Virus record (IMG/VR): IMGVR_UViG_3300031688_000178
Span: 1 to 20,542 of that record
From: a virus
Length of the DNA: 20,542 bases
Direction: 5' to 3' (one strand)
Both the position numbers and the translations under genes were made by a program. The notes below the pieces were generated by a model. That model saw nothing but the letters and a program-made list of their open reading frames with translations. It was not told the DNA's origin and ran no database searches. Below are positions 13,724 to 20,542 of the stretch, piece by piece; the first letter of the stretch is position 1, and every line of letters begins with the position of its first letter.

Positions 13724-14620
13724 TTATTTCCCCCCTCTGAATTCTTCAAATGAGTCAGTGAACGCACCCTTATGATTTACCCACGCATTGAACTTGGCGC
13801 GGAACTTCTTAGGGTCACTTGTTAGGCTGACGTTACTATTTATATTAAAGGGGCTTATCCAGTACCTATAGTTGTTACCCATGCTATCTGCTAGTTCACA
13901 CAGGAATGCGTGTACCATAGTGGTACGTTGTTCGTGTTGCTCTTCTACTAACATGTCTCTGAACGTGCCCCCACCCATGCTACCAGCCGCCATCCTAGCC
14001 TCGCGGTTAGACTCGTAGTTCATAGTCCCCTCAAGTATGGGGGTCATAGTCCATGCCCAGTGTAGGTATTCATCTATAGCTTTCTTGTACGGTGCCTTGG
14101 CTTCCTTGTTAACACGTACACGTGTGACAGGTATAGGGTGTTCATCACTGGACAGTGTCCAAGGTGCGTAATGTCTGTGCCCCGCTACAGAACTGTTAGT
14201 CCTTCCTGCGGTAAACACTACAGGCTTGCGCTCATCCTTGGGTAGAAAGTAGCGGTTGCTATCAGGTCTACACAGTATGTACTGCTTGCCGTTGTCTACT
14301 ATGAACCGCGTACCCATAGGCATACACCGCCCAAGGAACGTGTACCTACCATTGTGCGCGTAGTCACCTGTCTCGTTGCGGAATTGCACCGTGTCAGTAC
14401 CATCGGCATTGCGAACCCAGACCACTGCGGCAGTGTGCGACTGTTCATGCTCCCCGCGATCTGATAACACGTACTGGTGTGGTGATAACTTGATGATACA
14501 TTCCCACTTACGTCTGCGATCACCGAGAGGCACTATGCTAGTACCCCTGATTGGTTTGGTGTTGTTATACAAATGTTCCACGTGAGTGAAACTGTCTAGC
14601 CCATAATAATACATAGCCAT
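13724..14620 (-). CDS. Protein of unknown function behind a palindrome leader
   Basis: 298 residues. The N-terminal ~150 residues are beta-rich with many aromatic and glycine turns (YTFLGRCMPMGTRFIVDNG, KQYILCRP). The C-terminal ~130 residues are helical, with a YLHWAWTMTPILEGTMNYES stretch, a Gly-rich GSMGGGTFRD loop and a long conserved-looking end (FNINSNVSLTSDPKKFRAKF). No catalytic motif is recognised. The ATG at 14620 has CGGAG 7 nt upstream. An 18-bp palindrome ends 17 nt before the start, one of five such leaders in the operon. Confidence 0.7.
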   Translation of the reverse strand: MAMYYYGLDSFTHVEHLYNNTKPIRGTSIVPLGDRRRKWECIIKLSPHQYVLSDRGEHEQSHTAAVVWVRNADGTDTVQFRNETGDYAHNGRYTFLGRCMPMGTRFIVDNGKQYILCRPDSNRYFLPKDERKPVVFTAGRTNSSVAGHRHYAPWTLSSDEHPIPVTRVRVNKEAKAPYKKAIDEYLHWAWTMTPILEGTMNYESNREARMAAGSMGGGTFRDMLVEEQHEQRTTMVHAFLCELADSMGNNYRYWISPFNINSNVSLTSDPKKFRAKFNAWVNHKGAFTDSFEEFRGGK

Positions 14621-14637: not shown

Positions 14638-14655
14638 ATTAGGTAATTACCTAAT
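14638..14655 (-). promoter_or_regulatory. 18-bp palindrome, copy 1
   Basis: Exact ATTAGGTAATTACCTAAT, 17 nt upstream of the start of the 298-residue gene and 6 nt after the stop of the 39-residue membrane gene. The flank differs from other copies: after the palindrome comes CAACTCGGAG rather than CAACCAAAG. Confidence 0.8.
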
Positions 14656-14661
14656 GATTAG

Positions 14662-14781
14662 TTAGCATATACCTTGCATAAAGCAGTCTGTGTATGCCAT
14701 ATCGTTTACCACCGCGTACACTACTAGTATTACTACCCCCGCTAGTATGTACATGATGTCCCCTTTCTTATTGTTATCCAT
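14662..14781 (-). CDS. 39-residue single-span membrane protein
   Basis: ATG at 14781 with AGGGG 6 nt upstream; stop TAA at 14662-14664. The protein reads MDNNKKGDIMY, then the hydrophobic helix ILAGVVILVVYAVV, then a short tail with two cysteines (NDMAYTDC...GIC). It is very short but supported by a good ribosome site, correct spacing after the previous stop (3 bases), same strand and the membrane-helix pattern. The charged N-terminus followed by one helix suggests insertion in the inner membrane. Function is unknown. Confidence 0.6.
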   Translation of the reverse strand: MDNNKKGDIMYILAGVVILVVYAVVNDMAYTDCFMQGIC

Positions 14782-14784
14782 ACA

Positions 14785-15000
14785 TTACCCCTGTTGTATG
14801 CGTTGCCACGCACGTTGTACTGTTCCCACGTCATTGCGATCATACTCACTATCCGTCGGTGTGTCCCTCACATGGTCGTAGTAGAACTCCAGTGCCTCCT
14901 CGACAGTGTTGATAGCCTCCGCCCACTCCATACGTAGCTCTTCTGCGGTAGATAGGTGCGCCCTACCTATGTCATGCCCGTACTTATTATCTTCACTCAT
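14785..15000 (-). CDS. Small acidic helical protein of unknown function
   Basis: 71 residues from the ATG at 15000, which overlaps the previous stop as ATGA, with AGAGG 8 nt upstream; the open frame continues to 15024 but that start is less likely. It is rich in Glu/Asp and mostly helical (TAEELRMEWAEAINTVEEAL) with an aromatic FYYDHVRD and a C-terminal WQRIQQG. There are no cysteines or membrane segments. Acidic, short early phage proteins often act as protein-protein inhibitors, but nothing here shows a target. Confidence 0.6.
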   Translation of the reverse strand: MSEDNKYGHDIGRAHLSTAEELRMEWAEAINTVEEALEFYYDHVRDTPTDSEYDRNDVGTVQRAWQRIQQG

Positions 15001-15290
15001 CCTACTATCCTCTTGTTTATCCACTCGCCTGATAACTTCTCACCGAGTGTCTCGAACCTAGACTTATCTGCGGGGTCACGGGGGGTACGTTTGGTGTCGC
15101 CACCCCCGAACCTAGTGTCTTTGTTTATTGGTAACAAGTGTGAGTTGTTTACCTCGAATGTCCTATGTAGCCTAGTAGCCATAGCGTGCGGAGATATATT
15201 GGCCGCGTTTGCATAGTCCCTAGCAGAATACATATGCCCTGTTATTAACCTAGAGTGTGATCCCACAAACTTTATAAGTCTTGCCGCCAT
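14997..15290 (-). CDS. Small basic protein, possible helix-turn-helix
   Basis: 97 residues. Residues ~21-44 (YSARDYANAANISPHAMATR, then LHRTF) fit a helix-turn-helix: a 'YSARDYA' first helix, a turn at NISP and a recognition-like helix with Arg/His. The C-terminal part is basic and Gly/Pro-rich (RFGGGDTKRTPRDPADKSR). DNA binding is inferred. The ATG at 15290 shares a base with the stop of the VWA gene (TAATG), and GAGGG lies 7 nt upstream, so expression is probably coupled to the VWA protein. Confidence 0.6.
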   Translation of the reverse strand: MAARLIKFVGSHSRLITGHMYSARDYANAANISPHAMATRLHRTFEVNNSHLLPINKDTRFGGGDTKRTPRDPADKSRFETLGEKLSGEWINKRIVG

Positions 15291-16555
15291 TACATATCCC
15301 TCGACTTGATGTGTACTGCCTTACCCACATCGGGTAATGCGCTTTTGTTATCTAACACTGTCCATAGTACCGGACAATCCCACGAACCCCAACCGTTGTA
15401 CAAATAGCCATCGGTCAGAACGATACATGCCTGTGGCTTGATACCAGCGCCCTGCATATACTCGGTAACGCATGTCACGTCTGTACCGCCACCGCCTATA
15501 GGCTTGGTGGATGTAGTCAGGTTGTCTAGTTCGTGCATGTTGTATTCCTCGTCACCAACAACACTGCTGCCCCAGTACAGTATTCGTACCTTGTCAGGTT
15601 TTACTGTGTCACATACACCCTTGACCTCAGACAGAAACGATGTCAACGCGGCCTGACCAATAGAGCCTGACGTATCAATAGCGATCACTAACTCACCTAC
15701 CTGCTCACTGATACCGCTAGGCATGATGATACCCTGACTCATCAACCTGCGATTGGGTCGGGCGTATGTAGAGTAGTCGTTACCTGCGCACGTTGTCTGT
15801 ATAAACTCACGCAACACCTCACGCCAATCAACCTGTGGCTGTAATAACTCATCGAGATCGCGACTGCCCCCCAGCTTACCTGCGGCCATAGCACCCTGAC
15901 GGATAGCCTCGTCAATGTCACGCGCCAACTCACGTTGCTCCTCATCGGATAGTTCCTGCGCCCCATCCCAATCATGCTCATCGAATCCTGCGCTACCACC
16001 GTCCGGGGAGCTGGAAGGTTCACCCTCACCCTCTGACTCGTTATCCTGTGGGTCATCACCGTCATCCTCATCAGCAATCCTTCGCATGTCCTCGTTGAGA
16101 TCACGCTCATCCTTGAGTATGTTGAACACCTGTGCGCTGTCCATACCACGGAACCGCTCATCTACTAGCCCACCTTCGGGTAGCTTGGCGAACCCATCTT
16201 GCCTGTTGTCATCGACGATCTTGATGTTGATAACGTAGTCACACGCGCAGTTAGCTAGGTGTGGGTCAATGTCATACATCCATCGCCATGTAGTGAGGTG
16301 GCGGTATAGCTTGTGCCCCTCGTCCTCGTGCAGTACTAGCCCACGCAATTCGGCATCGGTAAGTCCGTCAACGAATGCACGCCCGTACTTGACATCACGT
16401 CCGTTGGTACACGCTGTCGGTACGTCATCCTCGACAGTCTTCTCCCCGATCATCAATACACCTGCTAGTGCTATGTATCGGGGGTGTCCCATGATGGCTA
16501 CGACTGCTTTGGACAGTCGCTCCTCTGCTGTAAGTTGTTTACCTATATTTAACAT
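15290..16555 (-). CDS. VWA-domain protein with a degenerate metallopeptidase-like N-terminal domain (DUF2201-like)
   Basis: 421 residues. The C-terminal VWA domain has a complete metal-ion-dependent adhesion site: IAIDTSGS (D294, S296, S298), GGGTD (T358) and LTDG (D382). The N-terminal domain resembles the putative metallopeptidase region of DUF2201 proteins, but where HExxH is expected it reads HEDEGHKLYRH (H76, E77, H81), one residue too long. A Glu/Asp/Ser-rich linker (residues ~150-205) joins the two. Such proteins usually act as the client adaptor of a MoxR-type AAA+ ATPase, which is encoded two genes upstream. The ATG at 16555 has GGGAG 6 nt upstream and overlaps the previous gene by 17 bases. 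It may be labelled CobT-like elsewhere, but nothing indicates cobalamin synthesis. Confidence 0.82.
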   Translation of the reverse strand: MLNIGKQLTAEERLSKAVVAIMGHPRYIALAGVLMIGEKTVEDDVPTACTNGRDVKYGRAFVDGLTDAELRGLVLHEDEGHKLYRHLTTWRWMYDIDPHLANCACDYVINIKIVDDNRQDGFAKLPEGGLVDERFRGMDSAQVFNILKDERDLNEDMRRIADEDDGDDPQDNESEGEGEPSSSPDGGSAGFDEHDWDGAQELSDEEQRELARDIDEAIRQGAMAAGKLGGSRDLDELLQPQVDWREVLREFIQTTCAGNDYSTYARPNRRLMSQGIIMPSGISEQVGELVIAIDTSGSIGQAALTSFLSEVKGVCDTVKPDKVRILYWGSSVVGDEEYNMHELDNLTTSTKPIGGGGTDVTCVTEYMQGAGIKPQACIVLTDGYLYNGWGSWDCPVLWTVLDNKSALPDVGKAVHIKSRDM

Positions 16556-16742
16556 GATTTACTCCCGTAAATACTCGGACTCTACGTCCACACATACTAC
16601 ACCTTGATACCCAGTCACCGGCTGGCTTGGTACACCGACAATACCTATTGCGAGTATCCTCCGCCAACTCGTACTTACCACACGTCTTAAACTTGGTAGG
16701 GTGTAGTCTTAGTTGTAACAATTCGCTACGCGTTATCTTCAT
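16539..16742 (-). CDS. Small zinc-ribbon-like protein between the AAA+ and VWA genes
   Basis: 67 residues, basic. C35-x-C37 and C48-x2-C51, with an extra C21, fit a small zinc-binding knuckle (RYCRCTKP, then SRCSMCGRR). The start overlaps the AAA+ stop as ATGA, and the end overlaps the VWA gene by 17 bases. It is thus locked into translation of the AAA+/VWA pair and probably works with them, for example as an adaptor or substrate-binding subunit. That role is inferred. Zinc binding is suggested only by cysteine spacing. Confidence 0.62.
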   Translation of the reverse strand: MKITRSELLQLRLHPTKFKTCGKYELAEDTRNRYCRCTKPAGDWVSRCSMCGRRVRVFTGVNHVKYR

Positions 16743-17821
16743 ACCTTGTCACTGGCGAACATGTAGTTGTTCTGCATAGCCCACTCAGTAAACAGCTTGT
16801 TCTGCATGACTACGGTACGGTGCGCGTATGTGTTGGCTCGTATGCCATTGGCAAACAGACCCTGTGATTCCTTGTCTAGTCGTTGCATGTATTTAACCCA
16901 CGCATCCACCCAGCTACGATCCATAGCACCCAGTGCCCGATACACTGTCATAACTATGGCTGACGCTGACTCAGGTACTTTGGCATTGAGCGGATCGTCC
17001 TTGATAGACTGTAGGCTCGGTAGCTGGTCGGCCAGCTTCACAAACGCCATCATATCCATCGCCCCACGATCACCGATAGTACCCATAAGTAAAGCTGTCA
17101 GGGTGTTATCGTCATACATATCGCGTAGCTTGAGCACGTCACTTGCGGCCTCCAATGATCTCGGAGTGATAAACGCGGCACGTTGCTCTTTAGGGTGGTA
17201 GATATAGGGGTTGTCCTTCGGGTCTTTAACATCCTCGAAGCCCTGTAGTACCTGCGGGAACTCGCGCACGAAACCTAGCACACTGTGATCGACATCGTTG
17301 CTGATACCCCACTCAATAAACTCGTCACTGGTAGACTTACGTGCAGTGATTACTGTGATGCGGTTGCGGGTATGTGGGGGTAACAGGTCGCCCACACCCT
17401 CTGCGCTTAGGTTGGTAGTAGCGAACACAATGCTACCTTCTGGTAACTTCTTTGTGCCTACCTTGTGCTCTAGCATAGTAATGTTGAGAGCATTCTTCAC
17501 TGCGGGATTAGCCTTACCTAACTCATCAATGTTAATAAGTAGTGGCTTGCCTAGGTGTATACCAAACTCCTCGTTGGGTAGGTATGTGACGTAACCTTCC
17601 TCGGTGTTGAGCGATGGTATGCTGATGTCGCCTAAGTCCTTGGTGGTACAGTCGAAGTAACATGGTACGTGGTCGGGGAATCTACCTGCTAACGTCTTTA
17701 ACAGTGATGACTTGCCGTTGCCCATGTGACCCTCTACGAGTATGGTGCGTTTGTGACCAACAGTAGCGATAGCGTTGGCGATCTGGTCTAGCGATAGTGC
17801 GTACATATTTTGAGTGTTCAT
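16739..17821 (-). CDS. MoxR-like AAA+ ATPase (CobS-related)
   Basis: 360 residues. Walker A is GHMGNGKSS (K37), Walker B is LLINIDE (D99, E100), sensor 1 is FATTN (N137), and RNR at 152-154 gives the arginine finger region. This is the AAA_5/MoxR class, which forms hexameric rings that unfold or insert metal into partner proteins together with a VWA protein. Here the VWA partner lies 184 bases downstream, with a small Cys protein between. The ATG at 17821 follows a leader containing the 18-bp palindrome. The segment between the palindrome and the start is identical to that before the DUF3150-like gene. Cobaltochelatase labels in databases would be by similarity of the ATPase only. Confidence 0.87.
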   Translation of the reverse strand: MNTQNMYALSLDQIANAIATVGHKRTILVEGHMGNGKSSLLKTLAGRFPDHVPCYFDCTTKDLGDISIPSLNTEEGYVTYLPNEEFGIHLGKPLLINIDELGKANPAVKNALNITMLEHKVGTKKLPEGSIVFATTNLSAEGVGDLLPPHTRNRITVITARKSTSDEFIEWGISNDVDHSVLGFVREFPQVLQGFEDVKDPKDNPYIYHPKEQRAAFITPRSLEAASDVLKLRDMYDDNTLTALLMGTIGDRGAMDMMAFVKLADQLPSLQSIKDDPLNAKVPESASAIVMTVYRALGAMDRSWVDAWVKYMQRLDKESQGLFANGIRANTYAHRTVVMQNKLFTEWAMQNNYMFASDKV

Positions 17822-17842
17822 AATAGTTTCTCACTTTGGTTG

Positions 17843-17860
17843 ATTAGGTAATTACCTAAT
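17843..17860 (-). promoter_or_regulatory. 18-bp palindrome, copy 2
   Basis: Exact ATTAGGTAATTACCTAAT, 21 nt upstream of the MoxR-like ATPase start and 6 nt after the stop of the 62-residue gene. It is followed by CAACCAAAG and GTGAGAAACTATT before the ATG, as in copy 3. Confidence 0.85.
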
Positions 17861-17866
17861 GGTTAG

Positions 17867-18055
17867 TTACAGTGTTTCAACAATGCGACCATCAACGGCC
17901 ACGATCTTGTAGTACGACACGCGGTGCGTGCGCATGTTTCTCAGGTTATTGTAGTGCTTGGTGCGCTTGTAGTTGCGCACTCGTAACACTGTCTGCCCAT
18001 CAAGGTTGCCCAGTACCTGCCTGTCATTTGAATCGTAGGCTTCAACGTAGTACAT
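17867..18055 (-). CDS. Small basic protein of unknown function
   Basis: 62 residues from the ATG at 18055, chosen for the GGGG 7 nt upstream and because it starts 1 base after the previous stop; the frame upstream to 18094 would overlap that gene. The sequence MYYVEAYDSNDRQVLGNLDG is followed by a strongly basic middle (RVRNYKRTKHYNNLRNMRTHR) and YYKIVAVDGRIVETL, predicting a small beta-rich nucleic-acid-binding protein. There are no cysteines or membrane segments. Family not recognised. Confidence 0.62.
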   Translation of the reverse strand: MYYVEAYDSNDRQVLGNLDGQTVLRVRNYKRTKHYNNLRNMRTHRVSYYKIVAVDGRIVETL

Positions 18056-18056
18056 A

Positions 18057-18968
18057 TCACATCCCCAATGATGGTAGTGACTTGATAGCGTCATCCACTA
18101 CCCGTTTAGTTTCGGCACGGAATGATTCGTTATTACGCAATCCATCTGGAGTCACCCCGCGTAGCGCATCGTCTAGTTTACGTGCCATCTCGGACATCTG
18201 GCTGTCACCTGTCACATTACACACGTTGAGCATTTCTACCATGTCGAGCACGTTGTCCACTAGGGAATCGCGGAACACTTTCTTCTTGTCACTGCCCCCA
18301 TAGTCTAGTCGGTCTGACATATTGGTGAGTGCCTTGTACGTACGTTGCCACACGTCACCCATCGCAGACTCTAGCTGCTTGCTGTAGTACTCACTGTAGT
18401 GGTCGGCCAATACCTGCTGCTGCTCGTTGCCCACGTCAATACGGAAGTCACCTGCATCGGGCAGTGGTATGTAGGATATAGTGAAGGCGAACTTACTGCG
18501 TATGGATTCCTCAGTCGGGTAGTCCTCACGTCTAAACAGGTCACCTAGTCGTGCCTGTGCCCTGCTAATCTCCCACGTGTAGTTGTTACAGAACGTGTCG
18601 GCCATGGTAAAGAACTCAGACTGTAATTCGGTAAGCTCTTTGTGATAGTTGAAGTACTGCGCTGTCGGTAGCAGTCGTAGCCCTAGGTCAGACCACGGCA
18701 TTGTCGATGCGTAGTTGATGTTACGTGTGTTGCCTACAAACTTCTGTATCGCGGTCAACTCATCGCAGTTACCCAGTAACTTCTTATTGACTGATGCCGT
18801 GCCCTTATCGGCATAGTTCTGGCTCGTCACTGTTGCGGATGCTGACTTGTCTTTCTTACGGCCAGTCCAACAACTAATCTTTAACTCTACTAGCATGGCA
18901 CTTGATCCAATGGATGGTGCGCTTACCTGTGGTGCTGTTGCTGTTACCATTTGATTTAGATTGTTCAT
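18057..18968 (-). CDS. DUF3150-like protein associated with the AAA+/VWA module
   Basis: 303 residues. After a low-complexity start it reads MLVELKISCWTGRKKDKSAS, then NKKLLGNCDELTAIQKFVGN, MPWSDLGLRLLPTAQYFNY and FTISYIPLPDAGDFRIDVG. As I recall, this matches DUF3150-type phage and mobile-element proteins, which are often found beside CobS-like ATPase and VWA genes; the name is from memory and needs a profile search. The C-terminal half is helical and charged. No enzyme motif is visible. The start at 18968 is preceded by the same palindrome leader as the ATPase gene, suggesting matched expression of the two. Confidence 0.68.
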   Translation of the reverse strand: MNNLNQMVTATAPQVSAPSIGSSAMLVELKISCWTGRKKDKSASATVTSQNYADKGTASVNKKLLGNCDELTAIQKFVGNTRNINYASTMPWSDLGLRLLPTAQYFNYHKELTELQSEFFTMADTFCNNYTWEISRAQARLGDLFRREDYPTEESIRSKFAFTISYIPLPDAGDFRIDVGNEQQQVLADHYSEYYSKQLESAMGDVWQRTYKALTNMSDRLDYGGSDKKKVFRDSLVDNVLDMVEMLNVCNVTGDSQMSEMARKLDDALRGVTPDGLRNNESFRAETKRVVDDAIKSLPSLGM

Positions 18969-18989
18969 AATAGTTTCTCACTTTGGTTG

Positions 18990-19007
18990 ATTAGGTAATT
19001 ACCTAAT
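18990..19007 (-). promoter_or_regulatory. 18-bp palindrome, copy 3
   Basis: Exact ATTAGGTAATTACCTAAT, 21 nt upstream of the DUF3150-like gene. The stop codon of the 203-residue gene (TAA, 18999-19001) lies at its centre. CACAAACCC precedes it on the minus strand, as in copies 4 and 5. Confidence 0.85.
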
Positions 19008-19610
19008 GGGTTTGTGTTGGCTAGATTGGTGGGTGGCTTGCGAGAGAGACTTTGGCACCATTGGGTCCTCCAGTGTAATCAGGCCAGTAACATCACACAC
19101 TACGTGATACACACTAGCCTCATCAAACGTACGTAGCATAGCGTCTCTATCTACGTGCCCGTCGTAGTATCCCTGCAACATTAACGCGGGGGTTGCGTAC
19201 TCACTTATGGGGTTGTCCTTGCGGTAAAGTTCATCACGTTGCTTCTCAAGTACTGCTCGTGCTTCCTGCTCGCGCAAAATCTCATCCTTATCGTACACGT
19301 ACTCTACCTCGTCATCGTCATCGTCCTCTAACTCGTACTCGTACTCTACCTCGTCATGGCGATGAGGAGAGGCCCAACAGTGGCGAAGTGGTACAGTCTT
19401 CGTTGGATTCTCTGTGTAATACTGCAATACAAGTTGTCTGTATAGCTCCTCAGTTATTTTCTCCCCATCAGTCTCGTAATTAGTCCGCGTGTAGGTTGAA
19501 ACATACCAATAGAAGGTACCACGTAACTCCCATACTAGGAGGCTGCCATAGTCGTTACCTACTTCCATTTCTAATACTTCAGGTTCTGCACTCTCATTAA
19601 TAGTTGTCAT
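18999..19610 (-). CDS. Acidic early protein of unknown function
   Basis: 203 residues. The N-terminal part is beta-rich and aromatic (LLVWELRGTFYWYVSTYTR). Residues ~86-108 are an Asp/Glu/Tyr-rich run (DEVEYEYELEDDDDDEVEY) that leads into a charged helix (DEILREQEARAVLEKQRDEL). The C-terminus has YYDGHVDRDAMLRTF and ends HKPIR inside the palindrome. The run of acidic residues could mimic DNA or bind basic proteins, a common trick of early phage inhibitors, but this is speculative. The ATG at 19610 has AAGGA 8 nt upstream, behind palindrome copy 4. No family is recognised. Confidence 0.65.
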   Translation of the reverse strand: MTTINESAEPEVLEMEVGNDYGSLLVWELRGTFYWYVSTYTRTNYETDGEKITEELYRQLVLQYYTENPTKTVPLRHCWASPHRHDEVEYEYELEDDDDDEVEYVYDKDEILREQEARAVLEKQRDELYRKDNPISEYATPALMLQGYYDGHVDRDAMLRTFDEASVYHVVCDVTGLITLEDPMVPKSLSQATHQSSQHKPIR

Positions 19611-19629
19611 ATCTGTATTCCTTTTGTTG

Positions 19630-19647
19630 ATTAGGTAATTACCTAAT
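19630..19647 (-). promoter_or_regulatory. 18-bp palindrome, copy 4
   Basis: Exact ATTAGGTAATTACCTAAT, 19 nt upstream of the 203-residue gene. On the minus strand CACAAACCC precedes it and CAACAAAAGGAATACAGAT follows up to the ATG. Confidence 0.85.
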
Positions 19648-19673
19648 GGGTTTGTGTGGTGCTTGGTTATACC

Positions 19674-19856
19674 TTATTCATCTTCCATACGAGTATCAGG
19701 CATATCGATGTGTTCTTCTACCATAGTCACCATAATCACCCTGTTGCGTATGGGTGCGTAGTCTAGTATAGAACCTTTAAAGTCATCGCCTACAATGACC
19801 ACTGTGTTTCCGTTCTCAGCTAGCTGTATCAGTCCCTGCTTCGTTACCTTTAGCAT
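19674..19856 (-). CDS. First gene of the leftward operon, small protein of unknown function
   Basis: 60 residues from the ATG at 19856, with AAGGA 8 nt upstream. The N-terminal half (MLKVTKQGLIQLAENGNTVV) looks helical and then turns into short strands (VVIVGDD, NRVIMVTMV). The C-terminal 15 residues are acidic (EEHIDMPDTRMEDE). There are no cysteines, membrane spans or known motifs. As the promoter-proximal gene of an early phage transcript it is a candidate host-takeover factor, by position only. Its leader is almost identical to that of the next gene. Confidence 0.65.
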   Translation of the reverse strand: MLKVTKQGLIQLAENGNTVVIVGDDFKGSILDYAPIRNRVIMVTMVEEHIDMPDTRMEDE

Positions 19857-19875
19857 ATCTGTATTCCTTTGGTTG

Positions 19876-19893
19876 ATTAGGTAATTACCTAAT
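19876..19893 (-). promoter_or_regulatory. 18-bp palindrome, copy 5
   Basis: Exact ATTAGGTAATTACCTAAT in the 5' leader of the operon, about 55 nt downstream of the likely transcription start and 19 nt upstream of the first gene. It is flanked by CACAAACCC and CAACCAAAGG on the minus strand. Confidence 0.85.
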
Positions 19894-19930
19894 GGGTTTG
19901 TGTTGATCTGTTAAGGTGTGTTACTCCGTA

Positions 19931-19948
19931 GGCTCAAAATCCCGAGCC
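19931..19948 (-). promoter_or_regulatory. Hairpin at the 5' end of the operon transcript
   Basis: GGCTC (19944-19948 read on the minus strand) pairs with GAGCC (19935-19931) around an 8-nt loop. It begins within a few bases of the expected transcription start, so it may stabilise the 5' end of the mRNA. A 9-codon ATG frame overlaps it but has no room for a ribosome site. Confidence 0.45.
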
Positions 19949-19956
19949 ATGTAACC

Positions 19957-19984
19957 ATTATACGCTAGTAGCGGCTTATGTCAA
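19957..19984 (-). promoter_or_regulatory. Consensus sigma70 promoter for the leftward operon
   Basis: On the minus strand the -35 is TTGACA (19984-19979), the spacer is 16 bp, and the -10 is TATAAT (19962-19957). Both hexamers match the consensus exactly. The likely start of transcription is near 19950, about 95 nt before the first ATG. No other minus-strand promoter of this quality was found in the window, so it probably drives most of the 18.6-kb operon by host RNA polymerase. Confidence 0.85.
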
Positions 19985-20032
19985 ATCGTGTACAAACGTG
20001 TTGTTTAGTGTGTAGCGGTAGCGTGTACTAGG

Positions 20033-20052
20033 TTGTACCTACTTGTACCTAC
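20033..20052. repeat. Tandem 10-bp repeat upstream of the early promoter
   Basis: Two directly adjacent copies of TTGTACCTAC. They lie about 50-70 bp upstream of the -35 box, one helical turn apart, in the usual place for an activator or repressor. The stretch 19985-20032 has further CGTGTA/GTGTAG-type repeats. Confidence 0.6.
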
Positions 20053-20082
20053 GTGAGGTCTGTAAGTCATTGATATTACTAC

Positions 20083-20360
20083 AATGTTACTTTGTTACCT
20101 TTTAGGCTGAAATATGAGGGTAGGAATTTAAGGTGAGAGGGGAGGTAACAAAGGGCTGAAGTTTTCAACTCCGCGTACTATAGAGGTACAAAGTAACATT
20201 ACATATTATTTATTAAAAAGAGTATAAAAAGGGGGATTTTACGCATATGCCTAGTCATGCCCTGATACGAAACAGCACGTTTAGATACTTTTTGTATTGT
20301 TACTTTTTAGGTCGAAAAAAGGTAACATTAGGGTAACATTACAAGGAAAAAGGTAACATT
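20083..20360. other. Candidate replication origin: iteron-like repeats and AT-rich DNA
   Basis: GGTAACATT occurs at 20321-20329, 20332-20340 and 20352-20360, spaced 11 and 20 bp, so all face the same side of the helix. GTAACATT also occurs at 20193-20200 and inverted (AATGTTAC) at 20083-20090. A 21-bp imperfect direct repeat starting TTGTTAC and containing TTTTAGG lies at 20092-20112 and 20297-20317 (18 of 21 positions match). Between them is an AT-rich stretch (about 20198-20235). There is no gene here. The layout fits an iteron origin, but no initiator binding is shown. Confidence 0.45.
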
Positions 20361-20376
20361 GTAAAAACCCTGCCCC

Positions 20377-20394
20377 ATTAGGTAATTACCTAAT
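20377..20394 (+). promoter_or_regulatory. 18-bp palindrome, copy 6, opposite orientation
   Basis: Exact ATTAGGTAATTACCTAAT. The flanks CCCC before and CACCC after, read on the plus strand, match the minus-strand flanks of the other copies. This copy therefore faces right, away from the leftward operon, toward whatever lies past the window end. Confidence 0.75.
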
Positions 20395-20406
20395 CACCCT
20401 GCAAGG

Positions 20407-20542
20407 CGCAACGCGGTACGGATACTGGTTTCATACGCAAGACGCAAAACGCAACGCGGTACGGATACTGGTTTCATACGCAAAACGCAACGCGGTACGG
20501 ATACTGGTTTCATACGCAAAACGCAAAACGCAACGCGGTACG
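20407..20542. repeat. Tandem repeat array running off the right edge
   Basis: Units start with CGCAACGCGGTACGG at 20407, 20450, 20486 and 20529 (the last cut by the window end) and continue ATACTGG then TTTCATACGCAA. The period is 36 bp, or 43 bp when an extra 7-bp CGCAAAA-type element is present (43, 36, 43). There are no unique spacers. The array may be part of an origin, a genome-end repeat or a packaging/replication signal. Confidence 0.85.

Follow-up and report, generated by a model that had tools for sequence, protein, structure and literature searches.

Two described systems of repeated sites come closest to the one reported here. In L5-type (cluster A) mycobacteriophages, stoperators are asymmetric sites of 13 base pairs (bp) that are oriented with transcription and bound by a helix-turn-helix (HTH) monomer of these temperate phages, and the regulator and its 20-30 sites diverge together (PMC6550527, PMC9283540). 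In cluster K, start-associated sequences (SAS; 13 bp, with the ribosome site in them) are accompanied by extended ones (ESAS). An ESAS is an inverted repeat close to the start of a gene, with imperfect half-sites of 17 bp, a variable spacer and a consensus that is specific to the subcluster; no binding protein was named (PMC3203893). Here we describe a set of inverted repeats (IRs) in a stretch of viral DNA of 20,542 bases (IMG/VR record IMGVR_UViG_3300031688_000178, positions 1 to 20,542; the whole stretch is called the window below) and in its relatives, together with a variable protein, R, whose gene lies just beyond the window. We propose, from comparisons of sequence, that the repeats are a set of DNA operators, bound as a dyad by the phage-encoded R, with one R-operator pair per phage, and we assign this reading a probability of about 0.76. 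We found no report of such an R-IR system in the literature that we searched.

The sequence ATTAGGTAATTACCTAAT has six exact copies in the window, all of them already listed, without a mismatch, in an earlier note on this DNA. No further site was found at up to three mismatches, and chance matches with three mismatches allowed average 0.03 per shuffled window. The early genes of the window lie on the minus strand, and five copies precede one of them: 14638..14655 stands before a gene for a protein of 298 amino acids (aa) (13724..14620), 17843..17860 before that for a 360-aa AAA-type (MoxR/CobS-like) ATPase (16739..17821), 18990..19007 before that for a 303-aa DUF3150-like protein (18057..18968), 19630..19647 before a 203-aa gene (18999..19610, whose 3' end the preceding IR overlaps) and 19876..19893 before a 60-aa gene (19674..19856). 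They end 17, 21, 21, 19 and 19 nucleotides (nt) ahead of the respective start codons, so that the distance of 17-21 nt given earlier holds. The copy before the 60-aa gene is the first of the early operon and lies in the leader, about 60 nt past the predicted transcription start. The sixth (20377..20394) has no gene closely behind it; it is found in an origin-like, non-coding region, with tandem repeats on one side and GTTACC repeats on the other, a position retained in four relatives (L007, G001, G002 and G004). The window terminates within the tandem repeat, directly short of the R gene. A contig that is at least 99% identical to it over the overlap (99-100%; IMGVR_UViG_3300031706_000120, our L010/L011) carries a seventh copy 1141 bp past the sixth, upstream of an open reading frame (ORF) of 248 codons on the same strand.

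Using the 360-aa ATPase and the 303-aa protein as queries, we collected about 90 loci of relatives, mostly at 55-93% ATPase identity. We scanned the loci for perfect palindromes, searched the larger contigs of 15 phages for all sites, and searched the remaining loci for any repeated IR with a spacer. The same gene junctions carry a palindrome in relatives, again in several exact copies, but one that differs between phage groups: TGTCTACATATGTAGACA is found in phages whose ATPase is 93% identical to that of the window, and TGTATACATATGTATACA, GTTATAACACGTGTTATAAC, TGTTAGTGAGCTCACTAACA, GTTAGGGAATTCCCTAAC and GTTCTAACATGTTAGAAC occupy equivalent junctions in others. The presence of a palindrome at these junctions in relatives favours a function, as the earlier note had supposed, while its sequence turned out to be particular to each phage. 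Within a phage, the arms (ATTAGGT, TGTATAC, GTTATAAC, GTTAGGG, TTCGGGC and TAGCCA, among others) are identical in 3-11 copies and the spacer has a fixed length of 1, 2, 3, 4 or 5 nt, whereas its bases are free, as in GTTAGTG-NNN-CACTAAC or TAGCCA-N-TGGCTA. The 18-bp palindrome first described is exact in the window phage, but its perfect AATT centre is peculiar to that phage; relatives have a spacer of variable bases there, and 80 of 137 four-base centres are not self-complementary. IRs with 7-base arms present at least three times occur in the window and in 15 of 15 contigs, compared with 0 of 40 mononucleotide shuffles. The distant loci L036, L040, L079, L082 and L089 gave no repeated IR at the search settings used, and the one exact palindrome common to L005 and L008 is a single, unrelated occurrence.

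The association with gene starts extends to the relatives. Over 34 contigs, a start codon with a ribosome-site-like stretch follows 123 of 224 sites within 60 nt (median 20 nt), as compared with 178 of 1360 positions chosen at random. The promoter TTGACATAAGC...GTATAAT is conserved among close relatives, as is the leader behind it. Directly ahead of the ribosome site, at a constant place, one IR is swapped for another between flanks that remain alike on either side. Several mosaic genomes (G001, G005, L007 and L030-L032) combine the phage's own IR, at the sites farther upstream, with GTTATAACACGTGTTATAAC before the 298-aa gene, as expected if the site set is exchanged stepwise. There are at least 15 interchangeable IR types across this family of uncultured bacterial viruses, each phage having its own type before its early genes.

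The outermost IR copy adjoins the gene for R, an ORF of 160-250 aa (about 200 aa). Its place is constant, in divergent orientation to the terminase genes, and its sequence varies much more than that of the adjacent genes. We located the family across loci with a profile built from these variable ORFs. In the window phage the gene occupies L011:1239-1985 on the minus strand, outside the window; its start is probably Met29, for a product of 220 aa, because a promoter-like element covers the first ATG of the 248-codon ORF. The IR at R is farther from the start codon than elsewhere. In the close clade it is followed by a conserved promoter-like element (TTGNNA-16-TANNAT), and the start predicted from this element lies about 60-69 bp downstream of the IR. 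This putative promoter is placed by its conservation; in several phages another sequence scored best in the automatic prediction. AlphaFold2 models of R from G001 and from the window phage are all-helical (mean pLDDT 88.6 and 78.8, respectively); the helices are arranged in a similar order in both, and the C-terminus forms a helical hairpin.

The amino acid sequence of R follows the IR. The nearest R shares the IR class in 29 of 32 cases, the maximum in 10,000 permutations being 11, and R distance correlates with IR distance when ATPase and DUF3150 distances are given (partial correlation 0.395; 0 of 5000 permutations as high). For pairs with an ATPase identity of at least 85%, median R identity is 0.72 for phages that share an IR and 0.31 for phages with different IRs, and none of the other genes tested has a comparable gap; the top R identity between IR classes is 0.53. 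The comparison of G010 with G013 illustrates this well: the median normalised score of 34 orthologs is 0.88, whereas the two R proteins show no detectable similarity and the IRs are TTTAGGG and TTCGGGC, respectively. We then used three R proteins as queries to retrieve contigs that had not been used before. All eight held-out loci carry the IR predicted from R at least once, mostly directly upstream of R, with the qualification that several of these contigs are short and have one IR copy only, and that one (L153) is a fragment belonging to the same type as the window phage. In a ninth (L168), whose R is only 43% identical, the arms are the same and the spacer is 5 nt long. A natural domain swap indicates which part of R is concerned. 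The N-terminal ~140 residues of the L007 protein are 45% identical to R of the window phage and 16-25% to R of the TGTATAC and GTTATAAC phages, whereas its C-terminal 54 residues are 83-89% identical to the latter and 50% to the former. The IR of L007 is of the window type, so the IR follows the N-terminal part of R.

At the level of sequence, then, the IRs are repeated, are replaced as sets and covary with R. In the mechanism that we suggest, R would bind these DNA sites directly, the variable N-terminal ~140 residues setting the operator preference and the conserved C-terminal helical part probably forming the dimer. We are less sure of what binding would do. R at about +60 in the early leader and ahead of each ribosome site might halt RNA polymerase, with which the position of the IR past a conserved promoter is compatible; we regard the chances of such a stoperator-like block of transcription as even. 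The block might silence the early genes, both the phage's own and those of any same-type phage that superinfects the cell, and the IR ~60 bp upstream of the promoter of R itself might provide autoregulation. The phage-specific operator set and its matching regulator are well supported, and it is the mode of control that we infer. The earlier note had named two HTH proteins of the window as possible binders, and neither fits: the 82-aa protein is 86-89% identical among phages with different palindromes, and the gene for the 97-aa protein is missing from most relatives.

Several observations weigh against R as the operator-binding protein. R gave no meaningful match to Pfam or PHROG and has no recognisable DNA-binding motif. 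Comparison of the R model with PDB structures (Foldseek, VIA-align 2) and with viral models gave no convincing match, most alignments covering the helical hairpin only; such a missing match does not amount to a new fold. The part of the window operon that encodes DNA polymerase and helicase has no IR copy, so not every gene would be controlled, and operators usually tolerate mismatches, whereas nearly every copy within one phage is exact. In addition, the Mantel and nearest-neighbour tests correct only in part for shared ancestry, and the R proteins of L056 and G009 are distant from those of phages with the same arms.

The strongest competitor places the function of the IR in the RNA: as a hairpin just before the ribosome site, it would govern how the mRNA is translated or processed, possibly by means of an R that binds RNA. 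The earlier note had allowed for an operator of a dimeric protein or an RNA hairpin and had preferred the latter, in a translational role. A position 17-25 nt before start codons suits a hairpin, a 7-bp stem could form in RNA (-5.1 kcal/mol), and covariation with R would also fit an RNA-binding R. All IR types tested can in fact be folded as RNA, so stability alone does not decide between DNA and RNA. The pattern of variation is more telling: in most RNA translational operators pairing is kept while the stem sequence is free and the loop or bulge is specific, and here the reverse is seen, with arms invariant within a phage and spacer bases that vary. Spacers of 1-2 nt (TAGCCA-N-TGGCTA, GTTATAAC-NN-GTTATAAC, GTGGGAC-NN-GTCCCAC) also leave the innermost conserved bases unpairable, and two copies, that in the origin-like region and that at R, upstream of the promoter-like element, need not be transcribed, in the latter case from that element. 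The RNA half of the earlier proposal is thus not supported, whereas R covariation and the domain swap support its operator half. We consider the RNA explanation improbable, and a DNA operator, as opposed to an RNA element, very likely.

It is less probable still that the IRs serve DNA segregation, condensation or packaging, as ParB- or KorB-like sites of the centromere or nucleoid type, and not the control of single genes. Numerous identical dyads are indeed grouped around an origin-like region, but the IRs are strongly biased to the position directly before start codons, and no ParA-type ATPase (PF13614) was found in 11 near-complete relatives, whose contigs may be incomplete. The least probable of the three is that the IRs are recombination boundaries for the exchange of gene cassettes, kept identical by homologous exchange and not by a bound protein: the 60-aa and 203-aa genes have the look of insertions that brought duplicated leaders with them, and in some phages the series ends with one IR of a foreign type, but recombination alone leaves unexplained the same dyad symmetry in every phage, the replacement of the IR between conserved flanks and the covariation with R.

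As a proposed DNA operator set read by R, the system would function most like the stoperators. Many phage-specific copies of a site stand in short intergenic gaps in both cases, a single regulator shifts its specificity with the site set, and distances between regulators correlate with distances between motifs. It nevertheless falls outside that class: its sites are dyads, its regulator is unrelated as far as the tests show, and the phages have no recognised lysogeny genes. The sites are inverted repeats of 13-20 bp and not asymmetric 13-bp sites oriented with transcription, and R differs from the L5 repressor in that no HTH could be detected in it and no Pfam or PHROG family matched it at a meaningful score, the two being set apart by library searches and not by direct comparison. 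The L5-type phages are temperate, with an integrase or parABS, whereas we found no lysogeny genes here. With SAS/ESAS the IRs share the tie to gene starts and a consensus that varies between groups; unlike them, the IR stands alone, is exact and has an identified protein with which it covaries. A repeated SAS-like element with a ribosome site was not found beside the IR, the ribosome-site regions differing among copies.

The arrangement may be wider than R, since two cultured phages that have genes related to those of this family carry IR sets of their own with no R homologue by profile search. The freshwater Planktothrix phage Pag-Yong1 (L151) has 19 copies of GGTTCA-N3-TGAACC, most of them some 21 nt ahead of a start codon, and the Rhizobium phage RHph_TM3_14A (L144) has 15 exact copies of GTTACC-N6-GGTAAC, many of them within genes. 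The R profile found no homologue in eight cultured phages, and a search of cellular genomes, for close relatives only, found none either; R is a protein family without name, annotation or recognised fold. The stretches that were read of HTVC027P, HTVC023P, KPP25, Rollin, DSL-LC04 and 023Pt_psg01 contain no repeated IRs.

Regulators that act at many sites are expected to evolve slowly, as all sites must change along with them. The family offers at least 15 naturally matched protein-operator pairs on otherwise similar genomes, together with a domain swap and genomes that are half-way between types, and so allows a test of how multi-site specificity evolves. The phages of the R family are probably lytic: a tyrosine integrase (PF00589) and a serine resolvase (PF00239) had no match in the same 11 near-complete relatives, subject again to incomplete contigs, and an unusual form of lysogeny may also be considered. 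A diversified repressor-operator pair is unexpected in phages that are apparently lytic in this sense. We tentatively suggest, at less than even odds, that R-operator pairs define incompatibility groups in phages without lysogeny genes. R in an infected cell would silence the early genes of incoming phages with the same operator, rare types would gain, and the pairs would diversify under frequency-dependent selection by stepwise replacement of sites and domain swaps of R. If R does cause superinfection exclusion, immunity groups, which are known from temperate phages, would extend to apparently lytic marine phages.

The early promoter of the window (TTGACA-16-TATAAT, 19957..19984, minus strand) is conserved among relatives with different IRs. 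The leader between this promoter and the first IR (19894-19957) contains a short hairpin whose sequence varies among relatives (GGCTC...GAGCC, GTAGG...CCTAC). The 60-aa and 203-aa genes that follow (18999-19856) have near-identical leaders, and neither has a homologue in the compared relatives other than the near-identical contig; they look like cassettes inserted along with an IR. On the other side of the promoter, an AT-rich non-coding stretch (20060-20370) with several GTTACC/GGTAAC repeats looks like a replication origin and is conserved across relatives with other IRs. We rejected these repeats as half-sites of the IR-binding protein, as they are unchanged in those relatives. The tandem repeat of 36-43 bp at the end of the window (20401..20542), beyond which the R gene directly follows, has counterparts at L007:4890-5067 and in many loci, where repeats with a GATACCAGT core adjoin the origin-like IR copy. 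The motif GATACCAGTWYC also recurs near that copy, and is probably read by another, conserved protein because it recurs across relatives with different IRs.

At the far end of the window, positions 10-1134 match the C-terminal end of giant DarB-like antirestriction proteins. Serial genes at 15290-18968 encode the DUF3150-like protein, the AAA ATPase and a metallopeptidase/VWA-like protein, a set that is present in Pag-Yong1 as well. The first of these is related to proteins in three cyanobacterial phage records, one of which is annotated as DUF3150, and the last is listed in PHROGs as an HNH endonuclease.

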